Of a DNA stretch of 60,589 nt, positions 6,162 to 31,310 are shown one piece after another. A program made the translations under genes and the position numbers. Source of the DNA: Trichlorobacter thiogenes (GTDB lineage Bacteria; Desulfobacterota; Desulfuromonadia; Geobacterales; Pseudopelobacteraceae); assembly GCF_900167465.1 (NCBI RefSeq), contig NZ_FUWR01000018.1:1-60589 (forward strand). Direction: 5' to 3'. A model generated the notes under the pieces. That model saw nothing but the letters and a program-made list of their open reading frames with translations, did not search any database and was not told the DNA's origin. Each line of letters starts with the position of its first letter. Positions within the stretch are counted from its first letter, which is position 1.

Positions 6162-7646
6162 ATGATGACAGCCAAAAGACGAGCAGGCGTATTGCTACAT
6201 CCAACATCACTCCCCGGAACAGATGGCATAGGCTCTTTTGGCACTGAGCTACTCAGATTTCTTGATTTCCTTGCCCAGTCACAATTCTCTTTATGGCAGG
6301 TTCTGCCTCTGACACCGCCAGCAGCAGGAAATTCACCCTACTCTGCCTACTCTGCCTTTGCCGGCAACCACCTGTTAATTGATCTGCAGCAACTGGTTGA
6401 TGAAGGTGACCTGTTACCACAGGCAATCCAGAACAATTTCCCCCAAGAGCACGTTGATTTTGATCAGGTTACTCCCTGGAAGGAAGCACTGCTGCACAAG
6501 GCTGCCGAAAACTTCTTTAACCAGGGCCAAACGCCGCGTCTGCAGGAGTTCTGGCATTTTTGCGATACTACCTACTGGCTGCATGATTATGCCCTGTTTA
6601 AAGCGCTGAAACAACACTACCACAACAAACCCTGGCACCGTTGGCCCAACGAACTGGCTTTTCGTAAACCTGCGGCTCTTGAGCAGGCTTCAGTAAAACT
6701 TGGCCCGGAAATCGGCGTACAAAAATATCTGCAATGGCAGTTTTATCGGCAGTGGCATCAGGTTAGAGGTGCTGCAAAAGAACGGGGCATAGCCATCATC
6801 GGTGATCTGCCGATCTTTGTTGCCCATGATTCAGCGGATGTCTGGTGTAATCAGGACCTGTTTCTTTTGGATGACAAGGGCAAGCCAACCGTTGTTGCCG
6901 GTGTTCCACCGGATTATTTCAGTGCAACCGGCCAGTTATGGGGTAATCCACTCTATGATTGGGAGGCAATGGCTCAGCAGGGCTATGTCTGGTGGATCGC
7001 CCGCTTCCGTCAGATGTTTGATCTGTTTGATCAGGTGCGGATCGACCATTTCCGTGGTTTTGAGGCTGCCTGGCATGTACCGGCAACCGCCAAAACTGCT
7101 GCCCACGGCAGGTGGGTGCCTGGTCCGGGAGCCGTTTTTTTTGATGCAGTAAAGGCATCGCTTGGCACGCTGTCATTTATTGCTGAAGACCTGGGGGTTA
7201 TCACACCAGAGGTTGAGGCACTTCGGGACCGTTATAACCTGCCCGGCATGAAGATTCTGCAGTTTGCCTTTGATTCAGATGCTGCCAACCCGTACCTGCC
7301 CCACCATCACCTGCCAAACAGCGTGGTCTACACCGGCACACATGACAATGACACCACCAAGGGCTGGTTTAATGCACTGCCTGCCAAGACCATTAATCGC
7401 ATGTACGATTATCTTGGACTGCCCGGTACAGAACCGGTCCAGGACCTGATCAGAACCGCGCTGATGTCAGTGGCGCAAACAGCCATCATACCATTGCAGG
7501 ACCTGTTGGAGCTGCCGACTGAGGCACGCATGAACCAGCCAGGAGTTGCACTGGGCAACTGGAGCTGGCGTTATCAAACAGAGCAGTTAACACCCAAATT
7601 GGCTGATCAGTATGCAGGGGTAGTCAAACTCTACGGTCGGAATTAG
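6162..7646 (+). CDS. malQ: 4-alpha-glucanotransferase (amylomaltase)
   Basis: The 494-residue protein is a GH77 enzyme of usual length. Recognisable features are the N-terminal GVLLHPTSLPGTDGIGSFG, the nucleophile region VRIDHFRGFEA (catalytic Asp), the acid/base region FIAEDLGVITPEV, and the THDNDTTKGW motif. It transfers alpha-1,4-glucan segments and releases glucose, acting in glycogen and maltodextrin metabolism. Two in-frame ATGs (6162, 6165) follow a GAGGTG ribosome binding site. It stands alone on the plus strand, divergent from the HEAT gene, with 83 bp between the two starts. Confidence 0.95.
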   Translation: MMTAKRRAGVLLHPTSLPGTDGIGSFGTELLRFLDFLAQSQFSLWQVLPLTPPAAGNSPYSAYSAFAGNHLLIDLQQLVDEGDLLPQAIQNNFPQEHVDFDQVTPWKEALLHKAAENFFNQGQTPRLQEFWHFCDTTYWLHDYALFKALKQHYHNKPWHRWPNELAFRKPAALEQASVKLGPEIGVQKYLQWQFYRQWHQVRGAAKERGIAIIGDLPIFVAHDSADVWCNQDLFLLDDKGKPTVVAGVPPDYFSATGQLWGNPLYDWEAMAQQGYVWWIARFRQMFDLFDQVRIDHFRGFEAAWHVPATAKTAAHGRWVPGPGAVFFDAVKASLGTLSFIAEDLGVITPEVEALRDRYNLPGMKILQFAFDSDAANPYLPHHHLPNSVVYTGTHDNDTTKGWFNALPAKTINRMYDYLGLPGTEPVQDLIRTALMSVAQTAIIPLQDLLELPTEARMNQPGVALGNWSWRYQTEQLTPKLADQYAGVVKLYGRN

Positions 7647-7652
7647 CAGGAA

Positions 7653-9590
7653 CTAACGGCTGATAACAGCAGTGTCATCTGACGCAGACAACTCATCCAG
7701 CAGCTTGCGCAACTGCCTGATCTCATCCTGGCCAAGCGGTTTATCCTGATAGATGGCGGCAGCATAGATGGCAACAAACTGCTTCACCTGTTCATCATTG
7801 GTTGCTGCTGCCAACTCAAACAGACCTTTGTTCTCAGTTGCAAGTCCTGGCCCGTATTTTGTTTTCAGCACCTGCCTGAAACGTTTGAGCAGCCGATATT
7901 CCTGATTATGGCGGAACCGCTGCAGACGCAGTTTAAACAAGACCAACAGCACAATTACGCCAGAAAAAACAATCAACAATCCTTTCCAGCGCGCCTTGAT
8001 CATCTGCTCCAGAGCCTGCAACTTGTTGCCTGCACTGCGCAGCTGGCTGACCTGACTTTCAAAATCATAGGTCACAATGCTGCGGTTCCAGCGGTAATCA
8101 AGGGCATCAACCAGCAACCTCAATCGTGCAGCCAGGCTTCGTTTCTGATCTGTGTTCCAGACAGCACCGGCATTTGTTGCAAAGCGGCTTGGATCAGTCC
8201 GGACCCAGCCTTTGCCTGCAATGTATGCCTCAACCCAGACATGGGCCATATCCTGACTGACCAGGTAATAGCCACCCACCTCGTTATATTCGCCGCCAAG
8301 ATAGCCGCCAACAAGCCGCGCTGGAACACCTGAGGCACGCAGCAAAAGGGCAAATGATGAGGCAAAAAACTCGCAATGCCCCTGTTTTGAAACAAACAAA
8401 AACTGATGGATCGCATCCCTGCCTGTGGGAAGCCCTATCCGACTGTAGCGATAGCCGCCATTCAGAAAATGCTGTTCAACCAGCTCAAGCCGCTTTTGAT
8501 CAGTAGCTCCTGTCCTTTTAATCCCCTCAGCCAGTTGACGGATCAATGGTGAGGTCCCTTCTGGCACCTTCAGATAAAAATTCCGGTTGATCGCTTTTGA
8601 AGTACGCAACAAGCCATCAGCGCCTGACCTGACAACATACCCCATCCGTCTGCCAAGGCCCCGTTGATAGTCAAAAACCAGATCCGGCGACATCCGCACA
8701 AACGGCAGGCGTATCTCTGCTGGTGCATCAAAACCGATCAGGATTTTGGATGACGATGGTTCAGGATAGATCGTCTGAATAACCGGCCTTCCAGCAGGAA
8801 CACTGGTTTCACTGGGCACCGTAGCAGTACGGGTCCATCTGCTACCATGGATTGTATTAAAAACCGTTCCACGCCAGTAGGGAGGTGTTAACTGTTGCGC
8901 CATCTCTGCCCTGAAAACCAGAACCCGTGCTTCTGCTACGCTGGAGACCGTTCCTGGCTCAACTTTGTCACTCATACCGGTAGAACCGGCAACAGTGGGA
9001 TTGAGGAATGTCCAGAGCGGAAAGGCGGTTCTTGGCAGGATCGGAAACAGCAGGGCCATGGTAGGCACAGTCAGCAGGGTTATCAACAGCGCCGTCAAAA
9101 CTACCCTATTCACTTCCTTGCGGGTGAAGCTCATGGCACTGTCCTGGGCATGAAAGGTCAACACCACCAGAGAAACAGGCACAAGCAAAAGTAACAGGGC
9201 CAGCCAGACCAGAAATAGCGGATTCAGCTCAAAAAGTGATCTGGAGGCAAGACAGAAAAGTGCCAGCAGGTTGATCTGCATCAGATTCCGGATGCTTTTC
9301 TCACCACACAGCCTCGCAGCAAGCATGATCACCAGCACACTCACCACCGGCTGAATCGGGTTGCGGTTGCTGTACTGCAGGGCATACCAGATAAAAACCG
9401 GTACAAGGGTCAGGTTAAACTGCCAGTTTTTAAGGTGCCAACGCCCCTTAAACTCTTGCAGAATACCGATTATCAGCCCTGCAGCAAACACCAGGCGTGG
9501 AAAGGTCTCAAGCCAGGCAAAGATCGGGATACCCCCGGCAAGGGCGATCAGAAAGCAGAGGATTGCGGCGAGACGGCTACTGCTGACCAT
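7653..9590 (-). CDS. Membrane transglutaminase-like protein (DUF3488/TgpA type)
   Basis: The 645-residue protein starts with about five or six membrane helices (residues 1-190), continues with a periplasmic transglutaminase core holding the Cys-His-Asp triad in GHCEFFASSFALLL, MAHVWVEAY and WVRTDPS, then one more helix (about 550-570) and a cytoplasmic tail. This is the TgpA architecture. It overlaps the DUF58 gene by 14 bp. With MoxR ATPase and DUF58 it forms the widespread three-gene module whose substrate is unknown; a role in cell-envelope protein processing is inferred. Confidence 0.88.
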   Translation of the reverse strand: MVSSSRLAAILCFLIALAGGIPIFAWLETFPRLVFAAGLIIGILQEFKGRWHLKNWQFNLTLVPVFIWYALQYSNRNPIQPVVSVLVIMLAARLCGEKSIRNLMQINLLALFCLASRSLFELNPLFLVWLALLLLLVPVSLVVLTFHAQDSAMSFTRKEVNRVVLTALLITLLTVPTMALLFPILPRTAFPLWTFLNPTVAGSTGMSDKVEPGTVSSVAEARVLVFRAEMAQQLTPPYWRGTVFNTIHGSRWTRTATVPSETSVPAGRPVIQTIYPEPSSSKILIGFDAPAEIRLPFVRMSPDLVFDYQRGLGRRMGYVVRSGADGLLRTSKAINRNFYLKVPEGTSPLIRQLAEGIKRTGATDQKRLELVEQHFLNGGYRYSRIGLPTGRDAIHQFLFVSKQGHCEFFASSFALLLRASGVPARLVGGYLGGEYNEVGGYYLVSQDMAHVWVEAYIAGKGWVRTDPSRFATNAGAVWNTDQKRSLAARLRLLVDALDYRWNRSIVTYDFESQVSQLRSAGNKLQALEQMIKARWKGLLIVFSGVIVLLVLFKLRLQRFRHNQEYRLLKRFRQVLKTKYGPGLATENKGLFELAAATNDEQVKQFVAIYAAAIYQDKPLGQDEIRQLRKLLDELSASDDTAVISR

Positions 9591-23811: not shown

Positions 23812-24159
23812 ATGTATACACACCCCATGATTTTCCTGAGACAGCATATTTTTCTGATCATGCTCGTTACTGTAGTACTGCTTTTCAGTATGACAGCCAG
23901 TCATTGTGCCTGGATTGCCCAGGTGCTGGATACCCCCTCTTCGTCCTCCCTACTTTTCAGTCAGAACGAGCTTGCCGAAGACAGCCAGGAAGGCACGCAC
24001 ACGTCCACCCCTTCATTTCTCCCCTCAGATGCCCTCGTTACCAATTTAACGGCATCTCGTCCTGTACTGCTTTCTGTGCAACGAGCACCAGACGACCAAG
24101 CCTTTCACCTCCCCCAGATCTACTTTGACATCTTTGTCCCGCCTCAAAAACTCAGTTAA
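23812..24159 (+). CDS. Small exported or membrane-anchored protein, unknown function
   Basis: The 115-residue frame starts at an ATG 5 nt after AAAGG, which is part of the inverted repeat at 23793-23809, so translation or transcription could be controlled there. One hydrophobic segment (about residues 10-32, FLIMLVTVVLLFSMTASHCAW) acts as a signal anchor or signal peptide; the rest is Ser/Thr/Pro-rich. I recognise no family. It is divergent from the hydrogenase operon and followed 89 bp later by the rhodanese selenoprotein gene. Confidence 0.5.
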   Translation: MYTHPMIFLRQHIFLIMLVTVVLLFSMTASHCAWIAQVLDTPSSSSLLFSQNELAEDSQEGTHTSTPSFLPSDALVTNLTASRPVLLSVQRAPDDQAFHLPQIYFDIFVPPQKLS

Positions 24160-24248
24160 ACACGTAAGCCGCATAGCCACAGAAATGTCATTTTCCTGAT
24201 TATTCCTTGCTGTTTCAGACAGCAGGACACTACCGAAAGGAGCTATTC

Positions 24249-25415
24249 ATGAGTATCCGCACCAGACTTGCAGCTAGTTTTGCCACTCTCTTTGCTGTCG
24301 CCATGCTGGCCGGTTGTGAAACCGGACCAGAAGTTAAAAGCGAAGCAGCAGCACCTCAAACTGTAGCAGCAACCCCGAAACAGGAAGTAAAAAAACCGGC
24401 AGGCCCGGTCATGCCCAAAGGGGTTACCGTCATCAGTACTGAAGCCCTAAAGGCACTTGTAGACAAAGGATCAGAAGCAGGCAACTACTTATTGTTTGAC
24501 AGCCGACCGGCTGGACGCTTCAACGCTGCAACCATCCCGACATCACAGCACCTGACAGATGCTGAAATGGAGAAACTTGATAAGGAAGGCAAGGTTGCAT
24601 CACGCCTAGGAGCTGACAAGAACAAACTGGCCATCTTCTGGTGCGGAGGCCCCACCTGACCGTTCTCCATCAAAGCTGCCGGTCTGGCAGCAAAAAATGG
24701 CTACACCAATGTTAAAGTATATTCAGGTGGCGACCCTGCCTGGGCAAAAGCAGAGCTGCCTTTTGTATCTTCTCCCAAGTTTGTAAAAGAAGGCAATATC
24801 CTCTTGCTTGACCTGCGTGCTGCCGACAAGTTTGCCGCTGGCCACATACCTCGTGCCATGAGCCTGCCTGTTACCAGCCTTGAAAAGTATCAGGAAGCCA
24901 ATTGGCCCTCCTTTAAAGGGGCTGCAATTGTCTTCTACAGCGACAATCAGGCCGATATAGACAAGGCTCTGGAGCTGATGCGTGATTATGGTCTGTCCAA
25001 GGCAACCTACTTCCCCGGTGGCCTGGCCAGATGGCAAAAACTGGGCACCCCTGTTGAGGCAGGCCCCAAACCGGCACCGGCAAACCTGACCTTTGTGCGG
25101 AAGCTTGAAGCACAGGATATTACCATTCCTGATTTTATCAAGGCTTTGGACAATGCGAATATTGTAATTTTGGATGTCCGCAATGACGCCGAAAGAAAGA
25201 CAGGTCAATTCAAAGGAGCCATCCATATCCCCTCTGATCAGATTGGGTCACGCTACAAGGAAGTGCCTAAGGACAAGCTGGTTATCGTCCATTGTGCAAC
25301 CGGTATTCGAGCCGGAATCGCCTACGAAACTCTCAAGGCAAAAGGTTTTACCAACCTTAAAGTGCTGAATGCAAATGTTGCCTTTACCGGTGATAAGTAC
25401 AAAATTACTGAATAA
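24249..25415 (+). CDS. Three-domain rhodanese-like lipoprotein, predicted selenoprotein
   Basis: From the ATG at 24249 (AAAGGAG upstream) the frame runs 388 residues if the in-frame TGA at 24657-24659 is read as selenocysteine (residue 137). The N-terminus is a lipoprotein signal (AVAMLAGCE). Domain 1 (about 55-170) has FWCGGPT-U-PFSIKAAG, where the U replaces the second Cys of the usual CxGPxC motif of this rhodanese type. Domain 2 (about 175-270) lacks the catalytic Cys (FYSDNQAD). Domain 3 (about 280-388) keeps it (VHCATGIRA). Coding is fluent on both sides of the TGA, and a SECIS-like hairpin follows directly. Likely a sulfur- or selenium-transfer or redox protein at the membrane; the substrate is unknown. 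The alternative, a nonsense mutation, is less likely given the hairpin. Confidence 0.85.
24657..24700 (+). promoter_or_regulatory. UGA selenocysteine codon and bacterial SECIS-like hairpin
   Basis: After the TGA, 21 nt precede the loop GGTCT, which is closed by a perfect 6-bp stem GCTGCC (24675-24680) / GGCAGC (24686-24691). An outer CCAT/ATGG pair (24667-24670 with 24697-24700) closes it further around an internal loop. The apical GGTCT is the same as in the E. coli fdhF SECIS loop that binds SelB, and the UGA-to-loop distance is within the bacterial range. This is direct sequence evidence; SelB recognition is inferred. Confidence 0.8.
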
Positions 25416-29636: not shown

Positions 29637-31310
29637 ATGGCTGACAAAGAAAATTGCGAACAACTTAAATATTTCAGTCATATTATGGACTCTGTGGCAG
29701 ATGGCGTCTTCACGGTTGACCGTGATATGCACGTGATTGCCTTTAACCGTGCTGCAGAACTGATGACCGGTATTAAGAGAGTAGATGCGGTTGGGCGTCC
29801 CTGTCATGAGATATTCCGTACTTCGGTCTGCGACAACGGTTGCCCGGTACGGGAGGCCATGAAAAAAGGAAAGCCGGTTACCAACCGCGAAGTAACCATT
29901 AAAAATGCTGAAGATCAGTTGATTCCAGTTTCTGTCAGCGCCTCAATTCTGTACGATGACGAAGGCAATCCTATTGGCGGGGTTGAAACCCTGCGTAGTA
30001 TGAAGCGTATCTACGCGATTATGGACAGCGTTGCCGATGGCCTGTTTACTGTTGATGAAGGGATGCACATCACCCACTTTAACAAGGCAGCAGAAGAAAT
30101 TACCGGGGTTTCCGCCCTGGAGGCGATCGGCAGACCCTGCTATGAAATCTTTAAATCAGAAGCCTGCACCGGTGCCTGCCCAATGGTTGAAGCAATTGCC
30201 ACCGGACAATCTATCCAACGTGAAGTAGAAATAAGTGATCGCAAAGGCCGTAAAAAACTGATCTCCGTCAGTGCATCAACTCTCTATGATGCAGCCGGAA
30301 ATGTTATGGGCGGTGTTGAAACCGTCCGCGACCTGACCCCCATTACGGCAATTAAAGAAGAAATTCGCGAAAAGTACTCGTTCCGCAGCCTGGTGAGCCG
30401 TAATCCTGCCATGCGTCGTTTGTTTGATGTCATGGAAGATATCGCTGCCAGCAACGCAACGGTCTTTCTGAATGGCGAAAGTGGAACCGGTAAAGAGCTG
30501 TTTGCCAGGGCCATCCACGACTTGAGTCCCCGCCGTGAAGGTCCGATGGTGATTGTCAACTGCGGTGCCCTGCCGGAAACCCTGCTTGAGTCAGAGATAT
30601 TCGGTGTCCGCAAAGGCGCCTTTACCGGTGCTACCGAGAACCGTCCCGGACGGCTTGAGCTGTGTAACGGCGGCACATTCTTTCTGGACGAAATCGGCGA
30701 CCTGCCGCTTCCCTTACAGGTAAAACTGCTGCGTGTTTTGGAAAACCATGAGTTCCAACCTCTGGGTGCCCGCTCACCCATCAAGGCCGATGTCCGCTTT
30801 ATCACCGCAACCCACCGTAATCTTGAAGAGATGGTGGCGGAAGGAACGTTCCGTCAGGACCTCTACTTCAGAATCAACATTGTCACCCTCAACATCCCCC
30901 CCCTGCGTGACCGTCGTGAGGATATCCCCCTGCTGGTGGATATGGCCCTGCAACGGTTCAATCTTACCTACAACAAAAAGGTTCGCTCGGTATCTCCTGA
31001 AGTTTTAAAACTGCTGCTTACCCACTCCTTTCCCGGCAATGTCAGAGAACTCTTGAATCTGATCGAACAGTCAGTCATACTCTGCCGCGGAACAGAGATC
31101 ACTCCGGATCATCTGCCAACCAATTTTCTGGGTCAAACCCATGAACAGGCGCAAAACACGCGCCGTTCCGGCAAGATCCCAACCGCCGCAGACCTGAACG
31201 CACTGTTAAGCCGTTACAGTGGCAATCGGGCTGAAGTTGCACGGGAATTAAACATCGACCGTACAACCCTCTGGCGTTGGATGAAAAGGCTTGGTGTGAA
31301 GGAGGCTTAA
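29637..31310 (+). CDS. PAS-PAS sigma-54-dependent transcriptional activator
   Basis: The 557-residue protein has two PAS domains (about 8-120 and 124-235), each with a Cys-x3-Cys pair (VCDNGCPV and ACTGACPM), which may bind a metal or sense redox state. A sigma-54 AAA+ domain (about 255-485) follows, with Walker A GESGTGKELFARAI, the sigma-54 contact motif GAFTGA and Walker B GGTFFLDEIGDLP. The C-terminus is a Fis-type helix-turn-helix (NRAEVARELNIDRTTLWRWMKR). No receiver domain, so control is through the PAS sensors. Clear GGAGGG binding site. It probably acts at the TGTTGCA sites in this cluster. Confidence 0.93.
   Translation: MADKENCEQLKYFSHIMDSVADGVFTVDRDMHVIAFNRAAELMTGIKRVDAVGRPCHEIFRTSVCDNGCPVREAMKKGKPVTNREVTIKNAEDQLIPVSVSASILYDDEGNPIGGVETLRSMKRIYAIMDSVADGLFTVDEGMHITHFNKAAEEITGVSALEAIGRPCYEIFKSEACTGACPMVEAIATGQSIQREVEISDRKGRKKLISVSASTLYDAAGNVMGGVETVRDLTPITAIKEEIREKYSFRSLVSRNPAMRRLFDVMEDIAASNATVFLNGESGTGKELFARAIHDLSPRREGPMVIVNCGALPETLLESEIFGVRKGAFTGATENRPGRLELCNGGTFFLDEIGDLPLPLQVKLLRVLENHEFQPLGARSPIKADVRFITATHRNLEEMVAEGTFRQDLYFRINIVTLNIPPLRDRREDIPLLVDMALQRFNLTYNKKVRSVSPEVLKLLLTHSFPGNVRELLNLIEQSVILCRGTEITPDHLPTNFLGQTHEQAQNTRRSGKIPTAADLNALLSRYSGNRAEVARELNIDRTTLWRWMKRLGVKEA

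Follow-up and report, generated by a model that had tools for sequence, protein, structure and literature searches.

A predicted selenocysteine-containing, three-domain rhodanese-like lipoprotein of Trichlorobacter thiogenes with relatives across its phylum

Five forms of rhodanese selenoprotein are listed in the excerpted text of PMC13188914, namely form 1 (motif UxxS), form 2 (UxxG), form 3 (CxU), form 4 (UxxG) and form 5, TsoB (UxxxxU); forms 1-3 are attributed there to Zhang & Gladyshev 2005, and Table 1 of the same excerpt gives WP_010941598.1 as an example of form 1. The remark of the original prediction that selenocysteine (Sec)-containing rhodanese-like proteins had been predicted elsewhere is borne out by this list, and a 'sulfurtransferase homologous to a rhodanese-like protein' is tabulated with the numbers 24 and 25 in an excerpt of PMC5029168. 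A rhodanese-like lipoprotein, ExtH, belongs to the extHIJKL cluster of Geobacter sulfurreducens, in which deletion of extI impairs the reduction of selenite and tellurite (excerpts of PMC5877670 and PMC6148476). Among the papers searched, which took in few subscription journals, none dealt with a Sec rhodanese that has three domains or bears haem.

Within the window (the whole 60,589-nt stretch of T. thiogenes DNA that was analysed), a frame opening with ATG at 24249 and closing with TAA at 25413-25415 contains a single in-frame TGA, at residue 137 (Table 1). The codons TGC GGA GGC CCC ACC (C132-G-G-P-T) stand immediately ahead of it, so that the break right after CGGPT that had been described can be read directly in the sequence; 251 sense codons follow before the TAA, which agrees with the 252 further codons first reported once the stop codon is counted. 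With the TGA taken as Sec, the product has 388 residues and its loop reads C132-G-G-P-T-U137-P-F-S140. As was foreseen for gene callers, mechanical open reading frame (ORF) calling reports two fragments instead, 24207-24659 and 24804-25415.

Table 1. Features of the predicted selenoprotein gene, in positions of the window
Feature	Position	Strand	Basis
Predicted selenoprotein gene, three-domain rhodanese-like lipoprotein	24249..25415	+	Sequence, Pfam, single frame in relatives
Signal sequence with lipobox L20-A21-G22-C23	24249..24317	+	Motif by eye/pattern alone
Rhodanese domain 1, residues 57-177, carrying the C132-x4-U137 loop	24417..24779	+	NCBIfam match, alignment
Cys132, catalytic Cys position of rhodaneses	24642..24644	+	Conservation; alignment with 6mxv and 3o3w
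UGA predicted to be read as selenocysteine, residue 137	24657..24659	+	Codon column of 88 frames
SECIS-type hairpin, stem GCTGCC/GGCAGC, loop GGTCT	24675..24691	+	Sequence, fold, comparison
Rhodanese domain 2, residues ~180-270 (limits by eye)	24786..25058	+	Sequence, Pfam
Rhodanese domain 3, residues ~285-377 (limits by eye)	25101..25379	+	Pfam, NCBIfam
Cys349, domain 3 active-site Cys (HCATGIRA)	25293..25295	+	Cys in 85/85 covering frames

The window protein matches PF00581 (Rhodanese) in three stretches (133.9 bits against a gathering score of 22.2; E 3.1e-39), as expected of the three-domain rhodanese-like protein that had been proposed; domain 2 is without an active-site Cys (YSDNQAD). 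No NCBIfam model reached its cut-off for this protein or for six relatives, one of them a Cys paralogue. Lipoboxes similar to that of the window protein occur at the homologous loci L060-L063, L066, L067 and L069, and the predicted lipoprotein would be anchored by a lipid at Cys23, facing the periplasm or the outside. A structure model (pLDDT 64.5, pTM 0.36) is fairly confident for domains 1 and 3 and not for the whole; in it, Cys132 is predicted to lie at the end of strand 127-131, ahead of helix 138-149. Foldseek comparison of the model with the PDB returned rhodaneses, EanB being the best, at a TM score of only 0.24 because the domain arrangement in the model is not confident.

To follow the codon of residue 137, homologues were searched for in 76 genomes from the family, 141 from the order and 395 sampled across the phylum, and 88 distinct homologous frames, drawn from the search loci and the stretches around them, were profile-aligned. 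Alignment of homologues for Cys or Sec at this residue had been proposed as a check, and it gave TGA in 46 frames, TGC or TGT (Cys) in 39 and another codon in 3 (GAT in L144 and L184, AGC in L186); the aligned loci are mostly the best match of each search and hence non-random, and 46:39 is not a frequency in nature. No second TGA occurs within the aligned range of any of the 46 TGA frames. Residue 132 is Cys in every TGA frame (46/46) and every Cys frame (39/39). Residue 349 lies within 85 of the 88 frames and is Cys in each of those. Three residues past Sec, 43 of the 46 TGA frames have Ser and the remaining 3 have Thr. At the Sec column, L144, L184 and L186 thus encode Asp, Asp and Ser, respectively, and two of these three are also without Cys132; to judge from their sequences, domain 1 is probably inactive there. 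A further relative, L074, has GGG at the column and lies outside the 88 frames.

The sample of 395 genomes, drawn evenly over the phylum, yielded 44 matches at E<=1e-40 in 38 genomes: 29 with TGA (28 genomes of 10 families, including that of the window), 14 with no stop and 1 with TAG. Among the aligned frames are 27 of these 29 TGA matches, all with the TGA at residue 137; the other two lie outside the alignment. The three-domain form with a mixed U/Cys motif, which had been described as apparently little studied, is not rare (28 of 395 genomes, 10 families), and C132, the Cys of that motif, is general to the Sec and Cys frames (85/85). In the order search, the family of genome G338 gave 10 three-domain TGA matches. 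With a single-domain Sec rhodanese as the query, no TGA match was listed in 48 genomes of the same family; this query is too insensitive, the family having given those 10 matches, and the identity of WP_010941598.1 is not shown thereby.

Downstream of the TGA, after 15 nt, begins a hairpin with a 6-bp stem (24675-24680 paired with 24686-24691) and a 5-nt loop GGTCT (24681-24685), both the spacing and the loop being as originally described. We take this loop to be identical to that of the E. coli fdhF SECIS. The distance from UGA to loop is 21 nt, and a 71-nt stretch containing the hairpin folds at -13.6 kcal/mol. According to the excerpted text of PMC13188914, a bacterial SECIS has a stem of 4-16 bp, a loop of 3-9 nt with G among its first two bases, a UGA-to-loop distance of 16-37 nt and an MFE <= -7.5, and the window hairpin lies within all of these rules. 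A check of this region with a SECIS predictor had been suggested; the hairpin fits the quoted rules and is conserved together with the TGA, but Rfam returned no SECIS family match, either in the window at gathering scores or in 24600-24800 at E<=10.

As a single sequence the hairpin is unremarkable (z -0.60; 56 of 200 shuffles fold as well), and it stands above chance because of the comparison among homologues rather than because of single-sequence folding. The six pairs of the window hairpin were examined at positions 16-21 and 27-32 after the codon, where no gaps were needed, and a sequence passed if at least four contiguous pairs closed a 5-nt loop with G among its first two bases. All 44 distinct TGA sequences passed, versus 5 of 39 Cys sequences. 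Under synonymous recoding with each sequence's own codon usage (2000 draws), 6.1 +/- 2.2 of the 44 TGA sequences passed, with a maximum of 14; the Cys set is indistinguishable from its own null (5 versus 4.5 +/- 2.0). Furthermore, the stem varies on both sides with pairing kept, the third pair being CG in 29, TA in 9, GC in 4, AT in 1 and TG in 1 of the 44 sequences, while the loop is GGTCT in 16 of the 44 and a variant such as CGTGA or AGGTT in the rest. Four of five single-domain TGA relatives passed as well; the fifth, L075, has only three contiguous pairs.

The genome from which the window comes (3.57 Mb, 42 contigs) encodes the machinery that the original prediction proposed to look for, every component scoring above its cut-off: tRNA-Sec with anticodon TCA (76.2 bits against a gathering score of 47), selB (331.5 against 242.25), selA (609.5 against 267.9) and selD (351.3 against 125), the last carrying a TGA of its own. 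The machinery does not discriminate genomes by the TGA form, with scores above cut-off for selA in 37 of 37 genomes and for tRNA-Sec in 36 of 37; ten genomes without a listed TGA form also have it, whereas in G429, which carries a TGA form, tRNA-Sec does not reach the cut-off. An unbroken selD lies on contig C20. On contig C37 (locus L058), a second selD keeps its N-terminal TGA and has its frame broken mid-way, and this break is either real or an assembly error. This second copy lies near a TusA-domain gene, presumably YedF-like, and is convergent with a Cys paralogue of the rhodanese, the positions concerned being ~6620-7559 and 7647-8807.

That Cys paralogue is 71% identical to the window protein and has no hairpin. 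Comparison of the window gene with L060, L061, L062 and L063 gave dN/dS values of 0.047, 0.055, 0.086 and 0.077 for residues 138-388, and of 0.087, 0.122 and 0.081 for residues 1-136 against L060-L062; dS exceeds 0.6 throughout, which makes these values rough, and the front part of L063 gave no value. The part after the TGA is under purifying selection. On a quick tree of 85 rows (the 88 frames without L079, L184 and the second frame of L096), the distribution of Sec and Cys requires at least 7 changes versus a mean of 27.4 after shuffling, a count from which L144 and L186, present in the tree with neither Sec nor Cys, were excluded. L107 (TGA) and L182 (TGC) are sisters, and L182 retains part of the stem; its sequence makes a recent Sec-to-Cys change likely there.

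Taken together, the codon column, the hairpin and the genome content make it very probable, as far as sequence can tell, that UGA137 is decoded as Sec and that this is a true selenoprotein gene of 388 residues. The two findings open to computation that would have spoken against the original selenoprotein reading, absence of the Sec genes and homologues with neither Cys nor Sec at this residue, were not what the genome and the alignment gave.

Ahead of the rhodanese domains, a c-type haem motif is present in 25 of the 46 Sec frames (22 with CxxCH, 3 with CX4CH), in 29 of 39 Cys frames (CxxCH) and in two of the three others; counted back from the position of residue 125, CxxCH sits 148-157 residues away. 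The window protein has no haem motif and carries the lipobox instead. Around eight haem-bearing Cys loci of the window's family with wide flanks, a PhsA-like molybdopterin oxidoreductase lies near seven and an NrfD protein near six; the other six wide-flank Cys loci (L058, L064, L068, L182, L183 and L185) have neither. For the oxidoreductases of L086, L071 and L186, the best NCBIfam model is thiosulfate reductase PhsA, at 519.6, 520.1 and 565.3 bits against a cut-off of 694, the rhodanese of L186 being one with neither Sec nor Cys. Among the Sec loci, L159 and L181 include a related oxidoreductase in the stretch, the one at L159 being only weakly PhsA- or QrcB-like; at L159 (81-2315, 3889-5085), the Sec-form rhodanese is near the molybdopterin oxidoreductase and a DUF3373-type ORF. 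No such molybdoenzyme stands beside the window gene, and a constant gene neighbour, sought across the Sec loci, was not found. Rhodanese-domain proteins are also encoded alongside the respiratory selenite reductase of Bacillus selenitireducens (excerpt of PMC12481199). By association only, the haem motifs and the neighbours suggest redox chemistry of sulfur or selenium in the periplasm.

The window gene itself stands alone, with a small conserved ORF upstream and, beyond it, a divergent operon that by eye looks like one for a NiFe hydrogenase; ORFs without a clear family follow the gene, and past these lies one for a protein resembling multihaem cytochromes (TIGR03508, 56.9 bits against a cut-off of 192.2). 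The small ORF (23812-24159, +) has 115 residues, a conserved end I-x-x-PPQ and no Pfam match, and counterparts precede the gene in L060 and L061, and perhaps in L062 and L069. In a survey of 60 loci (L065 was dropped, no rhodanese motif being found in it), ORFs with a GAFTGA-like motif of sigma-54 regulators were no more than 3 kb away at 6 of the 44 Sec loci (L155, L157, L158, L165, L166 and L171) versus 0 of 16 others, with 12 such ORFs in 883 kb; they lie farther off in L061, L063 and the window (29637-31310). Promoter motifs resembling TGGCAC-N5-TTGC were seen upstream at 5 of the 44 Sec loci and 2 of the 16 others, where ~0.04 are expected per locus. In those lineages, the gene may be under sigma-54 control.

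How the protein might work can be proposed from its active-site residues. SelB and tRNA-Sec would decode UGA137 at the bacterial SECIS hairpin just downstream. Cys132 takes the persulfide position of rhodaneses, to judge from alignment to 6mxv (loop Cys) and 3o3w (C-x4-C loop), and would accept an atom of sulfane sulfur (or of selenium); Sec137, which opens the next helix five residues later, would then attack as the resolving residue, sulfide (or selenide) would leave, and the resulting Cys132-Sec137 selenenylsulfide would be re-reduced by a periplasmic donor. Cys349 of domain 3 may serve as a second carrier site, with domain 2 structural. We give about even chances to this role in the periplasmic transfer and reduction of sulfane sulfur or selenium, with Cys132 as carrier and Sec137 as resolving residue. 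We infer the substrate, the location and participation in the respiration of sulfur, polysulfide or selenium oxyanions; the selenium- or redox-specific role of the original prediction may likewise apply.

The protein could instead be a selenoprotein of another kind, a thiol or selenol peroxidase, a reductase or a redox sensor, in which C-x4-U would be a redox switch and not a carrier of sulfur or selenium. The C-x4-C/U pair of all 85 Sec or Cys frames and the haem motif of many relatives suit such a switch, and the excerpted PMC13188914 states that redox functions are assumed for most uncharacterised selenoproteins; on the other side, two rhodanese-type active-site Cys residues (132 and 349) are invariant, and the haem-bearing Cys relatives adjoin PhsA-like enzymes. 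We regard the redox switch as a serious possibility, at somewhat less than even chances. More doubtful is a broader scheme in which the unnamed three-domain rhodaneses with Sec in domain 1 found phylum-wide, many of them fused to a single c-type haem, would act in the periplasm as redox chalcogen-transfer enzymes: a Cys-Sec pair, reduced with electrons that the haem or the pool of cytochromes supplies, would split polysulfide or the bond between selenium and sulfur, feeding PhsA/PsrA/Srr-like molybdoenzymes. If true, the fusion of Sec rhodanese and haem would be a new type of selenoenzyme.

Readings without Sec at residue 137 fare far worse. The TGA might be a true stop or a recent nonsense mutation, in a pseudogene or through an assembly error; the single-sequence hairpin is not unusual, and the second selD of the same genome looks frameshifted, so that damage or assembly error does occur there. 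Decay is nevertheless very unlikely because of conservation, and we consider this reading highly improbable: in 28 of the sampled genomes, from 10 families, the three-domain protein has a TGA, at this same codon in all 27 aligned matches of the 29, none of the 46 TGA frames among the 88 has a further TGA, dN/dS is low downstream and the hairpin is tied to the TGA. There is also very little likelihood of two genes, the C-terminal part restarting after the TGA, as the two mechanically called ORFs might suggest: the first in-frame starts past the TGA are TTG186 and ATG204, therefore the well-conserved helix half of domain 1 would be lost, and the Cys homologues are one frame. Decoding of the UGA as an amino acid other than Sec, by suppression or a changed code, has nothing for it beyond the read-through itself and is scarcely credible, given that TGA closes 13 of the 44 long ORFs that mechanical calling gives in the window (one perhaps the front piece of this gene) and is therefore an ordinary stop here, that Cys is the alternative residue in homologues, and that Sec genes and a SECIS-type hairpin are present.

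With UGA137 read as Sec, a rhodanese of the cell envelope is indicated to use selenium in many members of one phylum, where Sec rhodaneses have so far been listed predictions without known function. Natural Cys counterparts, one of them in the same genome, permit a direct test of what Sec contributes; leads come from the invariance of Cys132 and Cys349, from the haem motifs and from the molybdoenzymes that adjoin the haem-bearing Cys forms. For annotation, mechanical ORF calling splits the gene in two, and the same is expected in the other families with the TGA form.

Compared with described systems, ExtH and the window protein share the description of rhodanese lipoprotein of Geobacter relatives; the ORF lists show no porin-cytochrome genes (extIJKL) at the window gene, and the Sec of that cluster is in ExtKL, not ExtH (excerpts of PMC5877670 and PMC6148476). 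The C-x4-C of BH2092, a solved structure (3o3w/3nhv) with a CxGPxC loop, aligns with C132-x4-U137, but BH2092 has Cys in place of Sec, a single domain and only a weak match (E 0.0028 and 0.0034). Form 3 (CxU), the rhodanese-related (seleno)protein NF041203, is like the window protein a rhodanese sometimes with Sec, yet its Sec motif is another one, and the window protein scores 65.4 bits against a cut-off of 115, with domain 3 as the best stretch. Form 1 (UxxS) shares with it PF00581 and Sec-x-x-Ser (here U137-P-F-S140), a likeness at the level of the motif. Among the named selenoproteins of NCBIfam, TsoB (NF045694), reportedly described by Haft & Tolstoy in 2025, matches domain 1 best (73.4 bits over residues 57-177), and its motif UxxxxU has the spacing of C132-x4-U137; it differs in its DsbD-like fusion and two Sec residues, and the score is far below the cut-off of 805. 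Single-domain Sec rhodaneses of the window's own family (L073, L075-L078) have, like the window protein, TGA at the column, C-x4-U and U-x-x-S, but match it in domain 1 alone and not in three domains. The window gene is a widespread, uncharacterised multi-domain member of the known Sec rhodaneses.
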